From a bacterium (GTDB lineage Bacteria > Sysuimicrobiota > Sysuimicrobiia > Sysuimicrobiales > Segetimicrobiaceae): a stretch of DNA of 34,195 bases. The stretch is from the NCBI GenBank assembly GCA_035703895.1, contig DASSXJ010000277.1, positions 1 to 34,195 of the forward strand. The letters are read 5' to 3'. Of this stretch, positions 14,344 through 19,697 are shown piece after piece. A program made the position numbers and the translations under genes. Under the pieces are notes generated by a model. The model had not been told where the DNA came from. It searched no databases and saw nothing but the letters and a program-made list of their open reading frames with translations. Within the stretch, counting starts at the first letter, position 1. Each line of letters begins with the position of its first letter.

Positions 14344-15540
14344 ATGGTTCGATTTAGACCCTGGCTTTCCGCACTGGCGCTGGTCGTGTTGGCAGCGATG
14401 CTGATTACGCCCAGGCTGCTGGTGGCCTCGAACCACGACGACGGCGAAATGGACCTCAAGGGACGGGCCCTGCACACCACGGACTTCTTCGTGTTCCGTG
14501 AACAGGACCAGAACGCAACCGCCGGCGCCGGTGACTTGGTATTCGTCATGAACGTGAATCCACGGTCGCTTCCGCGTCAAGAGTACTCCTTCAGCACGGG
14601 GGCCCAGTACGACATCCACGTGACGCGCGTCAGCGACAATAACGCGACGCCGACAGGCAAGACGGACGCAATGCTGCGGTTCGAGTTCGGCGCGCCGGCC
14701 CAGGATGGGTCGCAGCCCATCAAGATAACGGCCGTCCGTGATGGCGTCACGAGCACCGCTGCGGGGACACCGCGGACAACGCCGCTCGCGGCCGCGGCGG
14801 CGCCCATCGTGACGCAGGCCACGGTAGCCGGCGGTACCCTTTCGGTGTTCGCAGGCCTACGCGAAGATCCGTTCTTCTTCGACGTCGAGCAGTTCTTCAA
14901 GGTGCGGGCCGGCGCCCTCGGGATGGGCCCCAAGGTCGGGTTCCGCACGCCTGGCTATGACTTCACTGCCGGATACAACGTGCTCTCGATCGCCGTGAGA
15001 GTTCCGCGTGCATGGCTCCAGGGCGCGACGTCGGCGACCACCTTTGACGCTTGGAGCAGCGTGACGACCGGCGGAAAGCAGGTTGCACGGCTCGCCCGGC
15101 CGGCGATCGGCGAGGGCCTGCTCACCACCACGGCCTACCAGAACGCACTCAACGGTGTCGGGCCGGACTTCGAGGCCGCAGCGCTGGCAGGGCACAAGCC
15201 GGAGGCCGACGCTGCCGGGCCCATCGTCGCGGAGGCAAAGAAGACGCTCATGGCGTTCGGCAACGATGACAAGCGCGCCACCGCGCTCCTGGTGGCGTTC
15301 CTGCCGGATGTGATGCGGATTGACACGATGGGACCGAGCGGGTACGCGGCTGCGCTCAACGCAAAGGGCAGCCCGATTCGCGGCCGCAAGATCACGGACG
15401 ACGTCATCCACATCACGCTCTCGGTCGTCACAAACGGCGCGGTTGCGACCGACAACGTCTCGTACACCGGCCCGAACGGTGGGGGGACGGCTCACAAGCC
15501 GCTGCTGAACAGCTTCCCGTACCTCGCGGATCCGAACTAG
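14344..15540 (+). CDS. Exported DUF4331-family protein
   Basis: The 398-residue protein has a signal peptide (MVRFRPWLSALALVVLAAML, cleavage before SNHDDGEMD). It matches the DUF4331 pattern: an early Ser/His/Asp cluster, then DFFVFREQD, FVMNVNP and, later, LREDPFFFDVEQFFK with GYNVLSIAVRVPRAWL, and an end with NSFPYLADPN. The family's function is unknown; its early conserved acidic/His cluster suggests metal binding, but that is inference. ATG 14344 has GGGGG eight bases upstream; an ORF from 14305 is longer but spoils the signal. It is the first of three closely spaced plus-strand genes (DUF4331, TPR, HupE/UreJ) that probably form one unit. A hairpin follows its stop. Confidence 0.87.
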   Translation: MVRFRPWLSALALVVLAAMLITPRLLVASNHDDGEMDLKGRALHTTDFFVFREQDQNATAGAGDLVFVMNVNPRSLPRQEYSFSTGAQYDIHVTRVSDNNATPTGKTDAMLRFEFGAPAQDGSQPIKITAVRDGVTSTAAGTPRTTPLAAAAAPIVTQATVAGGTLSVFAGLREDPFFFDVEQFFKVRAGALGMGPKVGFRTPGYDFTAGYNVLSIAVRVPRAWLQGATSATTFDAWSSVTTGGKQVARLARPAIGEGLLTTTAYQNALNGVGPDFEAAALAGHKPEADAAGPIVAEAKKTLMAFGNDDKRATALLVAFLPDVMRIDTMGPSGYAAALNAKGSPIRGRKITDDVIHITLSVVTNGAVATDNVSYTGPNGGGTAHKPLLNSFPYLADPN

Positions 15541-15554
15541 CCCCTCGGGGACTC

Positions 15555-15587
15555 CGGGCGCCGGCAAGCAACTCTCGCCGGCGCCCG
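15555..15587 (+). other. Strong hairpin between the DUF4331 and TPR genes
   Basis: CGGGCGCCGGC pairs perfectly with GCCGGCGCCCG over 11 bp around an 11-base loop. No T-run follows, and the TPR gene starts 29 bases later. It may be an mRNA-stability or partial-termination element that lowers expression of the downstream genes. Confidence 0.5.
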
Positions 15588-15615
15588 TCACCCACAAACC
15601 TCCTGGAGGATATCG

Positions 15616-17004
15616 ATGAGCGCTACACCTACGGGGCCGCGCCGGCAGCTGCTCGCGATCGCCACAGCCGTGACGATGATCGGGACCGCGCTTATGGTGG
15701 TTGCCGTACCGAGGCTGCGACCCGGGCTGCACGCAGCGGCCGACCGCCTCGGCATAACGCACCTCGCCGCGAGGCCCTCGGCGTACCGCTACCAATTCAA
15801 GCGCCCGCCTCGAGGCGCGATCACGAGCCTGCTCCGAGACGAGATCGCCTTCTACGAGAGCCGCATCGCCAGGACGCCCCAGAGTGGCCTCGATCGCGCG
15901 GGGCTCGCCGGAGCCTACTTGAAGATGGCCCGCGTGACTGGGGACCTACGTTGGTACCTCCTGGCCGAGAATACAGCGGGGGAATCGCTCGCCAACCTCC
16001 CGATGAGCAATGCGTCGGCCACCCTGGTGTTGGCACGGGTCGCCGAGGCGCGGCACGACTTTGTCATGGCGATCCGCCTCGCCCGCGGAGCGGGACCGAG
16101 CGAGGAGGCCCTCCCGATCGTCGTCACCGCCAACCTTGCGCGGGGCGATGTCCCTGCCGCGGCCCCGGCGGCGACGGAGCTGCTGGCCACCACTCCCTCC
16201 TTGCAGGGGTACGCGCTTCGCGCGCTCGTCGAGGTCGCCCGTGGCCAGGACGCAGAGGCGGAGGCCGATTTCCAGCGGGCGCTGGCGATGGAAGAGCCGG
16301 AAGAAGTCGCCAGCTCAACGTGGGTGCGCAGCCTGTATGGACGCTTCCTCTATCAGCACGGGCGTCTTGAGCCTGCGCGCGAGTTGTTCAGCGAGGCGCT
16401 GCGTATCCTCCCCCAGTATCCGCTGGCGCTGACGGACCTTGCAGTGCTCGAACTGCGACAGGGACGGCATGCCGCGGCGATCGATCATCTCACGCAGATC
16501 GTTACGGTCTCGGCGGCGGCACCGAACGTGTACGATCACGTTGTCCTGCGCGGCCTCGCGAAGGCCAAGGAGATCGAGGGCCGCCGCGACGAGGCGGCCC
16601 GGTTCTGGGCCGACGCCGAGGCGCGCCTGCGTCAGGACGAAGCCTCCGGGGCGTACGGCCACCGGCGTGAGCTGGCCCGCCTGCTTCTGACGCGCGGCCA
16701 CCCCGAGGACCTCCCTGAGGTCCTGTCTCTGCTGCGGGCAGAGCTCGCGGTCCGCACAGATCCGGACACGTTCGATACATTGGCGTGGGCGCTCTCACGC
16801 GCGGGGCGGTGGCGAGAGGCAGACCGTGCGGCTCATCAGGCGCTGCGGTGGGGAGTGCGAGACGCCCGGTACTTCTACCGCGCGGCGACGATCGCCCAGG
16901 CATTGGGGGACACGAAACAGGCTGGCATGTATCTCAGGTTGATGCGGACCGCGGACCCGACGTTCGATGCGCGTGCGTTGGAGGTCGCCGGGATCGGACT
17001 GTAG
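15616..17004 (+). CDS. Membrane-anchored tetratricopeptide-repeat protein
   Basis: The 462-residue protein has one N-terminal membrane segment at about residues 11-31 (LLAIATAVTMIGTALMVVAV). The rest is helical, with TPR-like repeats. Recognisable TPR signatures include YGRFLYQHGRLEPARELFSEAL, LTDLAVLELRQGRHAAAIDHL and LAWALSRAGRWREADRAAHQAL (two or three conserved repeats plus degenerate ones). TPR superhelices are protein-binding scaffolds, so it probably holds a partner on the outer face of the inner membrane. The start has GGAGGA close upstream. It sits between DUF4331 and HupE/UreJ genes on the same strand, about 83 bases before the latter. Confidence 0.87.
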   Translation: MSATPTGPRRQLLAIATAVTMIGTALMVVAVPRLRPGLHAAADRLGITHLAARPSAYRYQFKRPPRGAITSLLRDEIAFYESRIARTPQSGLDRAGLAGAYLKMARVTGDLRWYLLAENTAGESLANLPMSNASATLVLARVAEARHDFVMAIRLARGAGPSEEALPIVVTANLARGDVPAAAPAATELLATTPSLQGYALRALVEVARGQDAEAEADFQRALAMEEPEEVASSTWVRSLYGRFLYQHGRLEPARELFSEALRILPQYPLALTDLAVLELRQGRHAAAIDHLTQIVTVSAAAPNVYDHVVLRGLAKAKEIEGRRDEAARFWADAEARLRQDEASGAYGHRRELARLLLTRGHPEDLPEVLSLLRAELAVRTDPDTFDTLAWALSRAGRWREADRAAHQALRWGVRDARYFYRAATIAQALGDTKQAGMYLRLMRTADPTFDARALEVAGIGL

Positions 17005-17087
17005 TCGTGGCAGGCGATCGCGGGCCCGGCGGCGTGCCGGCGGTCTGCGCGGAGTCGCAAAATCGAAGAAGGGGCGAGGTGAATTCG

Positions 17088-18218
17088 ATGGCACGGCGAT
17101 GGAGATGGAGTCTGGTCCTGGCGGCGGTCCTCCTGCTCGGTTGCGCTGTGGCGGCACCGATGGCGCAAGCACACTGGGCCGACCAGGCCGCGGCCGAGGT
17201 CGTGGTGGTTGGATCGACCGCGCGCATGACATTGACCGTGCCGACAGGGCTCCTGGCGTTTGCCGACGACAACCGAGATGGCCGGCTGTCCGACGAGGAG
17301 ATCCGGGCCCACCGGGAGGACCTGCGGCGTTTCCTTGATGAGCGGGTCAGCGTGCTCGGTCGCTACCAAAGGCCGGGTGGGGCGAGCGTGCAGGAGGTAG
17401 GCATCCTCACCGTCGAGCCGGGGTCGGGCACTCCGGCCGTCGGTCCGGCCCGCCTCGCCCCCACCACGCACACGACGCTCGCGCTCAGGTACACGTGGCG
17501 CGCTCCGATCACCGCACTCTCCATTCACTACGATCTCTTCGTCCCCAACGTCTCCACCGCGAGCTGCCTCGCGACAATCCTCCAGGACGGGCAGGTCCGC
17601 AACGTCGTGTTCACTCCTGAGCACCGCGAGACGATCATCGCCTTCGGCCACACCCCGGTGTGGCAGGCCACCGGCGGTTTCGTCACGCTCGGCATCGAGC
17701 ACATCCTCACGGGGTACGACCACATGTTGTTCCTGCTCAGCCTGCTGATGCTGGGCGGCAGTCTGCGGCAGCTCATCAAGATCGTCACGGCATTCACCGT
17801 GGCGCACTCGGTGACGCTGTCCCTCGCCGTCCTCAACATCGTGGCGCTGCCCTCGCGTTGGGTGGAGAGCGCGATCGCGCTCAGCATCGTCTATGTGGCG
17901 TCCGAGAATGTCTGGCGCGGCAGCAGGTCGCTGCGCCTCCGGTGGCTCGTGACGTTTGGCTTTGGGCTCGTACACGGTCTCGGATTCGCCTCCGCCCTCC
18001 AGGAGATGCACCTGCCGCAGGCCAACGTCGCCGCATCGCTCGTGGGGTTCAACGTGGGAGTAGAGATCGCGCAGATCCTCGTCGTCACCCTGGCCTATCT
18101 GACGTTGGATGTGATCCGGAATCGGACGTGGGCGCCGTCGTTCCGGCAGTGGGTCTCGGTCGCCACCGCGCTCGTCGGGGTCGTCTGGTTTATCCAGCGC
18201 GCGCTGCTGTCATCCTAA
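17088..18218 (+). CDS. HupE/UreJ-family membrane protein with a periplasmic EF-hand loop
   Basis: The 376-residue protein has a signal peptide (cleavage near APMAQA, residue 28), an extracytoplasmic domain of about 165 residues, then about six membrane helices. The membrane half has HupE/UreJ motifs: GIEHILTGYDHMLFLLSL (202-219), TAFTVAHSVTLSLA (234-247) and GFGLVHGLGFASAL (291-304), with His residues in helices as in metal or small-molecule transporters. HupE and UreJ are linked to nickel supply, but no hydrogenase or urease gene is near, so nickel is unproven. The soluble part carries an EF-hand loop at residues 60-71 (DDNRDGRLSDEE) with ligands Asp60, Asn62, Asp64, Ser68 and Glu71. The ATG at 17088 is preceded by GGGGCGAGGTG. 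A longer open frame upstream is antisense noise in the TPR gene's frame. Confidence 0.87.
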   Translation: MARRWRWSLVLAAVLLLGCAVAAPMAQAHWADQAAAEVVVVGSTARMTLTVPTGLLAFADDNRDGRLSDEEIRAHREDLRRFLDERVSVLGRYQRPGGASVQEVGILTVEPGSGTPAVGPARLAPTTHTTLALRYTWRAPITALSIHYDLFVPNVSTASCLATILQDGQVRNVVFTPEHRETIIAFGHTPVWQATGGFVTLGIEHILTGYDHMLFLLSLLMLGGSLRQLIKIVTAFTVAHSVTLSLAVLNIVALPSRWVESAIALSIVYVASENVWRGSRSLRLRWLVTFGFGLVHGLGFASALQEMHLPQANVAASLVGFNVGVEIAQILVVTLAYLTLDVIRNRTWAPSFRQWVSVATALVGVVWFIQRALLSS

Positions 18219-18284: not shown

Positions 18285-18794
18285 CTACTTGAGCGGAAAC
18301 AATGGCGAGGCCCAAAAGATCTTCTTATCTTTGTGGAACAAGACGGTCGAGGGGGTAAGAATGGATTGAAAGCCGATGCTGTCCGAGAGGGTGAAATCCG
18401 GCATGCCGGATGAGCTGACTTCGAGTGACGCTCGCTGGGTCTCGAAAGGATCGGAGAGCACAACCCTGGGACCGTCCGACGCAACGACGAGTCCGAGCCG
18501 AGACTTCCCCGCATCATCATACAGCGTCAGCGCAGGACCGTCGGAACCGACGCCGAGGGAGGCGCGGGTCCGACCCGCGGCGTCCACGACCTGAATCGTG
18601 CGGGCCCGAATTTCGGCCGGCCGCAACGAGTCTCGAACGATCCACAAGGCGAACGCCGTCACAAGTCCCAGCACGATGACGCTGAGCCCCCATCCCACCA
18701 TCGTCAACTGCAGCCTCCGTTCCATAGCCTTCAGGACGGTCTCCAGAGCGTCGACGCTCCCAGCAGGCACCATCTCATACTCTTTTCTTTTCAT
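18285..18794 (-). CDS. Single-pass membrane protein with short beta-repeats
   Basis: The 169-residue protein has a short cytoplasmic N-terminus, one membrane helix (about residues 33-53, VGWGLSVIVLGLVTAFALWIV) and an extracytoplasmic part made of three to four repeats of about 22 residues. The repeats follow the pattern hydrophobic-x-D-x-x-G-x-x-R-x-x-L-x-V-x-S-D-G-P (for example VVDAAGRTRASLGVGSDGPA). This suggests a small beta-solenoid or beta-roll; similar repeats occur in uncharacterised bacterial proteins. The function is unknown. The ATG at 18794 is well supported by GAGGGAG five bases upstream; a longer frame to 19049 reads through the intergenic region and is rejected. It converges on the HupE/UreJ gene. 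Confidence 0.8.
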   Translation of the reverse strand: MKRKEYEMVPAGSVDALETVLKAMERRLQLTMVGWGLSVIVLGLVTAFALWIVRDSLRPAEIRARTIQVVDAAGRTRASLGVGSDGPALTLYDDAGKSRLGLVVASDGPRVVLSDPFETQRASLEVSSSGMPDFTLSDSIGFQSILTPSTVLFHKDKKIFWASPLFPLK

Positions 18795-18965
18795 TGTGCT
18801 CCCTCTGAAGGTCGTATCAGGGCTGTGAGAAGGTCTTTGGGTCTTGAGTCCGGAAGACGCATGCCGGTTACCTACTCTTATTGTGTGCCCAACTTGCCCT
18901 GCGACCATGTCAGCATTCGGTTGGCGTGGTTCCGGCGCACTCAACAAAGCGGGAGGGACGGAAAG

Positions 18966-19037
18966 ATGAAACCAGGAGTATCTAAGAAGGTGGCGACGCT
19001 GGCCGCTGGAGCGAAGCTCCCAGGGGATATCGGGTAG
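18966..19037 (+). CDS. Possible 23-residue peptide ahead of the MOSC gene
   Basis: ATG at 18966 has a strong GGGAGGGA site six bases upstream and encodes a basic/Gly-Ala peptide (MKPGVSKKVATLAAGAKLPG plus three residues) ending six bases before the MOSC ATG. It could be a leader peptide or a chance frame. No family is recognised. Confidence 0.25.
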   Translation: MKPGVSKKVATLAAGAKLPGDIG

Positions 19038-19043
19038 GACGCT

Positions 19044-19697
19044 ATGCACATCGCTTCCGTGAACGTGTCCCTTCCCCGCGAAGTGGTCTGGAAGGGCAAG
19101 CGGGTCACGACCGGGATTTTCAAAGAACCGGTCGAGGGCCCGGTCACCTTGCGCACCCTCAATCTGGACGGGGACCAGCAGGCCGATCTATCAGTCCACG
19201 GAGGGCCAAGTAAAGCGGCGTATGTGTACCTGGTGGAACACTACGAATATTGGTGCAGGGAATTGCCTCAGATGACGCTGCCCTGGGGGATGTTCGGCGA
19301 AAATCTCACCGCCGAGTGGTTGCGGGAGGACGCTCTCAACATTGGGGATCGGTTTCGTGCGGGTTCGGCGGAAGTGATGATCACCGAGCCCCGCCTGCCG
19401 TGCTACAAACTAGGCATCAAGTTCGGACGGGAGGACATCATCAAACGCTTCCTCGCCAGCGGCCGGACAGGCTTCTACGTCGCCGTCGTGCGCGAAGGCC
19501 CGGTTGAAGCCGGGGACGCGGTCGAGCTGATCGAGCGCGACAAGCACGGTGTCACGGTCGCCGATATTACCCGCTTGTATGCGCACGACAAGAACAATCG
19601 GGACCTGTTGCACCGTGCCCTGCAGGTCCCCGCGTTGCCCGAAAGCTGGAGGGGGTACTTCCGACATCGGATCGAGAATCTCTCGGCAGCCACGTGA
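19044..19697 (+). CDS. MOSC-domain protein, YiiM-like
   Basis: The 217-residue protein matches the MOSC domain with the YiiM-type arrangement. Key parts are DLSVHGGPSKAAYVY (48-62), GMFGENLT (82-89) and the conserved Cys120 in EPRLPCYKL. A C-terminal helical segment follows (after about residue 165, ITRLYAHDKNNRDLLHRAL). MOSC proteins bind or use molybdenum cofactor, and YiiM acts in reduction of N-hydroxylated bases, so a Mo-dependent reductive detoxification is plausible but not shown. The start ATG follows GGGTAGGACGCT. Its Mo link fits the molybdenum oxidoreductase operon about 2 kb downstream on the other strand, though they are separate transcripts. Confidence 0.9.
   Translation: MHIASVNVSLPREVVWKGKRVTTGIFKEPVEGPVTLRTLNLDGDQQADLSVHGGPSKAAYVYLVEHYEYWCRELPQMTLPWGMFGENLTAEWLREDALNIGDRFRAGSAEVMITEPRLPCYKLGIKFGREDIIKRFLASGRTGFYVAVVREGPVEAGDAVELIERDKHGVTVADITRLYAHDKNNRDLLHRALQVPALPESWRGYFRHRIENLSAAT

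Follow-up and report, generated by a model that had tools for sequence, protein, structure and literature searches.

Three adjacent genes in the 34,195-nucleotide stretch of DNA analysed here (the window), from a bacterium of the phylum Sysuimicrobiota, probably constitute a single module that handles a transition metal outside the cytoplasmic membrane, nickel or cobalt being the likeliest candidates and copper a less likely one. They encode a DUF4331 protein, a TPR protein and a HupE/UreJ permease (Table 1). We consider the metal role well supported because of the exchange of permease types among relatives, a fold match and the N-terminal motifs of the encoded proteins. The original prediction of a metal or small-molecule uptake or sensing system is thereby narrowed to a metal, there being no indication of any other small molecule.

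A conserved cluster of three genes

As first described, the three genes follow one another on the plus strand with short gaps (75 and 83 bp), and all are intact. The best starts are ATG codons at 14344, 15616 and 17088, each with a purine-rich stretch resembling a ribosome site on its 5' side. The DUF4331 protein matched PF14224 with 185.5 bits (curated cut-off, 27), the alignment starting at S29 of the predicted mature protein and reaching its C-terminus, and the third gene product matched PF13795 (HupE_UreJ_2) with 167.9 bits (curated cut-off, 24.5). The TPR gene gave a match to TPR_2 (E 1.6e-12) together with other Pfam TPR matches. This protein had been called a membrane-anchored scaffold; a hydrophobic stretch at approximately residues 11-32 of its sequence supports a predicted anchor, while 'scaffold' stays a guess. 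On the 3' side of the triad, window positions 18285-19049 (minus strand) encode a 254-amino-acid protein that has a single hydrophobic segment and matches nothing in Pfam.

Table 1. Positions of the three genes and of their predicted features in the window
Feature	Position	Strand	Basis
DUF4331 protein, 398 aa, exported	14344..15540	+	PF14224, E 2.6e-54; AF2 model
DUF4331 signal peptide, predicted, 28 aa, ends LLVA	14344..14427	+	Sequence; -3/-1 rule, 129 homologues
DUF4331 predicted mature N-terminus Ser-Asn-His, ATCUN-type NH2-X-X-His	14428..14436	+	His31 conservation, position-3 rule
TPR protein, 462 aa, predicted N-terminal membrane anchor	15616..17004	+	Pfam TPR matches; hydrophobic stretch
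Anglerase-type HupE/UreJ permease, 376 aa	17088..18218	+	PF13795, E 1.7e-49; AF2 pLDDT 85
HupE signal peptide, predicted, 28 aa, ends AQA	17088..17171	+	Sequence; Ala at -1 in homologues
HupE extracytoplasmic domain, starts H-W-A-D (His1), predicted metal capture	17172..17648	+	Foldseek; His29 conservation
HupE_UreJ_2 transmembrane permease domain	17679..18122	+	PF13795
H-x5-D-H motif (HILTGYDH) in permease	17700..17723	+	Invariant His205, Asp211, His212

Within the window's phylum, PF14224 was found in 13 of 43 genomes and PF13795 in the identical 13. Identical sets would arise by chance at about 3e-11 (1 in 43-choose-13) if the genomes were independent, a figure not to be taken literally because they are related. 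The order DUF4331-TPR-HupE held throughout 14 loci of the same phylum, except at contig ends. A scan seeded with DUF4331, covering one genome for each of 84,980 species, yielded 80 loci, mostly from Cyanobacteriota and otherwise from Deinococcota and the window's phylum; a TPR gene lay within 2.5 kb in 76 of these and a permease gene within 6 kb in 64. Further samples, drawn regardless of neighbours, contained a TPR gene and a permease gene, respectively, in 12 and 11 of 14 cyanobacterial loci, in 10 and 6 of 13 loci from other phyla (about half having no permease within 6 kb) and in 6 and 4 of 8 plasmid loci. The order of the triad is far beyond chance. A conserved order in distant phyla had been named beforehand as the test of the grouping, and it was found: the combination occurs in five phyla, Sysuimicrobiota, Cyanobacteriota, Deinococcota, Actinomycetota and Pseudomonadota. 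These include an actinomycetotal plasmid record listing DUF4331, TPR and a 'nickel transporter', and plasmid records from Alpha-, Beta- and Gammaproteobacteria with DUF4331, TPR-like and HupE/UreJ genes; one Bacteroidota plasmid carries DUF4331-TPR only. A metagenome-assembled genome labelled Tatlockia (Gammaproteobacteria; L059) groups with Cyanobacteriota in the collection and in the tree, and is probably misnamed.

As a control, the same models were applied to 438 kb of sequence separated by over 6 kb from any DUF4331 gene and found zero TPR or permease homologues; the absence of permease matches there indicates that the permease link is not incidental. This bears on the idea of an extracellular matrix or surface-protein sorting system to which the permease is linked only by accident. 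Such a system might be suggested by a PEP-CTERM-like secreted protein family encoded 5' of DUF4331 in 23 scan loci from cyanobacteria (e.g. L065 8944-9768), and by a weak match of the TPR protein to PrsT. However, the PrsT match is far below the cut-off and the PEP-CTERM-like gene is present in a minority of loci, and we regard this explanation as very improbable.

The dependence between the two families is one-sided. Outside the window's phylum, 26 genomes contained HupE_UreJ_2 and 12 contained DUF4331; 3 had both, and in 2 of these the genes were adjacent. Since 23 of the 26 carrier genomes have the permease family without DUF4331, the permease does not generally depend on DUF4331. An RND pump encoded 5' of the triad was considered as a further part of the module and rejected, being absent near the triad in relatives; the other window neighbours are not kept either. 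A viral origin was likewise discarded, as no viral contig encoding the TPR protein was found.

The N-terminus of DUF4331

His31 was invariant in a 55-row alignment of DUF4331 proteins that included a member only 26% identical. Cleavage two residues before this His satisfied the -3/-1 rule in 125 of 129 exported members (Ala at -1 in 111), and alternative positions did so in at most 55, in a set that required a small residue two before the His and was thus biased toward the alternative with His at position 2 and not toward the reported cut. The predicted mature protein began with (S/A)-X-His in 125 of the 129, the ends being SDH (101), SSH (14), SNH (8) and others (6); these counts lack independence, many of the sequences being cyanobacterial and related, although diverse members show the pattern too. 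The PF14224 domain begins at the predicted mature residue itself. Most of fifteen further DUF4331 matches without the pattern represented the C-terminal half of a split gene or a gene cut at a contig end; the others were one His-less duplicate copy and the type that has no signal peptide. In five loci (L185, L188, L216, L219 and L220) DUF4331 is split over a pair of neighbouring genes, and X-X-His is usually retained in the N-terminal half.

Members without a signal peptide provide a second view of the same end. All eight examined start M/V-S-X-His, where X is H or N (in L250, by re-reading the annotated start). The initiator residue is removed before Ser, so these proteins would have the same S-X-H end as the exported members. 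That two processing routes lead to one end suggests that it is the combination of free amine and His3 that counts. A free NH2-X-X-His is the definition of the ATCUN motif (PMC7701195), and the mature DUF4331 N-terminus is accordingly worded here as a predicted ATCUN copper/nickel motif.

The AF2 model of DUF4331 (pLDDT 86) has a beta-rich domain followed by helices. Foldseek found no match for it in the PDB at E<=1e-3, and a search for a known fold through PDB sequence relatives returned only designed-repeat matches that were apparently spurious. Residues 19-41 were modelled with low confidence, as expected for a flexible metal-binding tail, which this fits without proving it. Alternatively, the X-X-His might be kept for structure, catalysis or partner recognition, DUF4331 being no metal carrier at all. 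Conservation of the entire stretch S-X-H-X-(D/E), and not of the His alone, would suit this view, as would a protein with no assigned fold. Yet two routes place the His at mature position 3, which is difficult to account for unless the free amine has a role; the N-terminal region is of low confidence in the metal-free model, and the neighbouring genes are metal genes. We therefore think this explanation unlikely, and favour metal binding.

The third gene and the exchange of its permease

In the window's HupE the predicted signal peptide is immediately followed by a His (AQA before the cut, HWAD after it), as in most third-gene permeases, and Ala occupies -1 in 81 of the 85 homologues that have the site; as for DUF4331, we infer the cleavage site from sequence. 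This residue, His29 (His1 of the mature form), was invariant in the alignment of HupE homologues, as were His205-x5-Asp211-His212 and His240 in the permease domain. H-x5-D-H is the nickel-site motif of HupE, and HupE nickel permeases carry it together with further conserved His in their transmembrane segments; the window's domain is a candidate nickel transporter. The N-terminal domain gave as its top Foldseek match 9GCE (probability 1.00, TM 0.51 by target length, E 1.1e-3), followed by the zinc-binding ZrgA and PA4063; the E-values are modest (~1e-3) because just one domain aligns. 9GCE shows the Ang-1 domain from a HupE/UreJ-2 protein with copper bound, and the secondary structure of the HupE model agrees with the published description of the anglerase (PMC12537917). 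The model thus points to a fold like that of the Cu/Ni-binding 'anglerase' domain, and the domain starting with His1 is predicted to capture metal. At two loci (L096 11300-11872 and L104 7792-8331) the third gene is cut down to the His-starting domain, the permease being lost.

The permease itself is exchanged while its partners stay. In many cyanobacteria the third gene carries the same N-terminal domain on a NicO permease (PF03824), which replaces HupE_UreJ_2, and in another DUF4331 branch NicO is joined to a different His-starting domain (HPLGNF). Mapped on the DUF4331 tree, permease type changed at least 10 times, or at least 9 times without the two truncated rows (L096 and L104); 6 changes fall within the window's own branch, and 7 are forced by well-supported branches when all rows are used. 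A remote DUF4331 branch without TPR adjoins a HoxN/NixA-type nickel/cobalt transporter or HupE/UreJ, some of its members lacking such metal neighbours. Rhizobium loci L253 (3001-5235) and L250 (3536-5205) place a DUF4331 without a signal peptide beside a HoxN/NixA-type transporter or a short HupE, with no TPR. A P. aeruginosa plasmid (L256 2911-5854) has a row of DUF4331, c-type cytochrome, DUF4198 and HupE/UreJ genes with no annotated TPR gene; DUF4198 is a secreted nickel-binding protein (PMC12537917). A small secreted protein of the C-Y-x-x-D-x-x-G-x-P-C type is encoded 3' of NicO-type permeases in cyanobacteria (L083, L085, L086, L089, L091, L097, L101, L103, L054, L056-L059 and L075), and is a possible fourth component.

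The 4.4 Mb genome of the window (337 contigs) contains, on contig C152, a second DUF4331-TPR pair with no adjacent permease (L003 1951-6972 and 10411-13308); two NicO-type genes lie 3.4-6 kb downstream on the opposite strand. The pair follows genes for a molybdopterin oxidoreductase and a cupredoxin-like protein. Another locus adjoins an apparent molybdenum-enzyme gene set and one has an adjacent c-type cytochrome, so that the module might be thought to assemble an extracellular metalloenzyme or redox protein and not to transport. These enzyme neighbours are not conserved, however, whereas the permeases are, and we consider assembly improbable.

A model for metal handling and its relation to known systems

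In the model that we prefer, DUF4331 would be exported and, on removal of its signal peptide, expose Ser-Asn-His, whose histidine and free amine, along with two backbone amides, would serve as ligands for Cu(II) or Ni(II). The protein would thereby capture or buffer the ion and hand it to the His1 domain of the permease, which would move it across the membrane; the TPR protein, probably membrane-anchored, likely joins the two. The associated permeases belong to nickel/cobalt families, which is why we prefer these metals to copper, although ATCUN and Ang-1 sites in published work also bind copper, often more tightly.

The direction of movement is less clear, and the uptake originally proposed is moderately favoured because of the extracytoplasmic capture domains, without being settled against efflux. 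The known cases among HupE and NixA-type relatives are importers. HupE is termed a nickel permease in PMC12537917, and a capture domain fused to the permease on the extracytoplasmic side suits import better. On the other hand, NicO relatives include exporters, so direction may be outward, and the same module could export or detoxify, DUF4331 sequestering excess metal in the envelope while the permease expels ions from the cytoplasm. In NCBIfam, PRK10019, a model for nickel/cobalt efflux, is the best match of a NicO variant, a CDF cation-efflux gene comes directly after one DUF4331 gene, ECF sigma and ChrR-like anti-sigma genes lie near many cyanobacterial loci, and carriers lack a full urease match. 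Export is in our estimation a real possibility, if the less probable one.

The sigma factor genes also bear on the suggested sensing role, which stands as circumstantial. Of the 80 scan loci, 32 contained a gene of one ECF sigma factor family and 24 a gene of a ChrR-like anti-sigma family, and another anti-sigma type occurred at 7 loci in the window's phylum; the ECF sigma and ChrR-like cupin anti-sigma genes are mostly upstream of, and divergent from, the module (e.g. L077 9137-9718 and L084 68-685). No member of these families lies next to the window's own triad. Riboswitch control was discarded, as seven relative loci gave no match in Rfam. Carriers in the window's phylum had no full urease match and no full-length or clear nickel-hydrogenase match, so that a classical nickel customer is missing, and coupling to either enzyme was not seen within the phylum. 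COX1 is nearly universal in the phylum and so does not discriminate.

The third protein is known in kind. Like the anglerase HupE/UreJ-2 proteins (Ang-1, mainly of Pseudomonadota, and Ang-2, of Actinomycetota; PMC12537917), it has a predicted signal peptide, His1 and a C-terminal HupE_UreJ_2 permease, and both have a beta-sandwich with helices between strands 2 and 3, although identity to 9GCE is only about 16% over the fold match. It differs in lying in a DUF4331-TPR cluster and in having relatives that often carry NicO in place of its permease domain; the anglerase paper makes no mention of DUF4331, tetratricopeptide, NicO or ATCUN. The NicO or RcnA-type nickel-cobalt transporters (PF03824) of many cyanobacteria share the third slot and the N-terminal domain, whereas the window's permease belongs to PF13795. 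Serum albumin and human CTR1, in which the NH2-X-X-His end belongs to a copper transporter, use this end for Cu(II)/Ni(II) as is predicted for DUF4331 (PMC7701195); there is no sequence kinship and DUF4331 is of the bacterial envelope, making this a functional analogy and not membership. DUF4198 proteins (PMC12537917) are, like DUF4331, exported and encoded beside HupE/UreJ, and the two occur together on one plasmid, but they are different families with different motifs (His1 in DUF4198, His3 in DUF4331). The open literature searched, which leaves most subscription and bioRxiv-only work outside, contained no mention of DUF4331 or PF14224, although the same search did find DUF4198/DUF6702. Within the limits of that search, we found no earlier description of the cluster, of the exchange of permeases or of the motif in DUF4331.

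Although DUF4331 is a widespread family, it does not appear in the literature searched. We put at about even the chance that it founds a bacterial family of ATCUN metallochaperones with interchangeable HupE, NicO and NixA-type permeases and usually a TPR partner. If true, this would give a function to the whole family and to an operon conserved among cyanobacteria, soil bacteria and further groups. ATCUN chemistry, familiar chiefly from peptides and from blood, would also gain a place in the metal traffic of bacteria, with metal passing via two successive free-N-terminus sites, X-X-His and then His1, to a permease.
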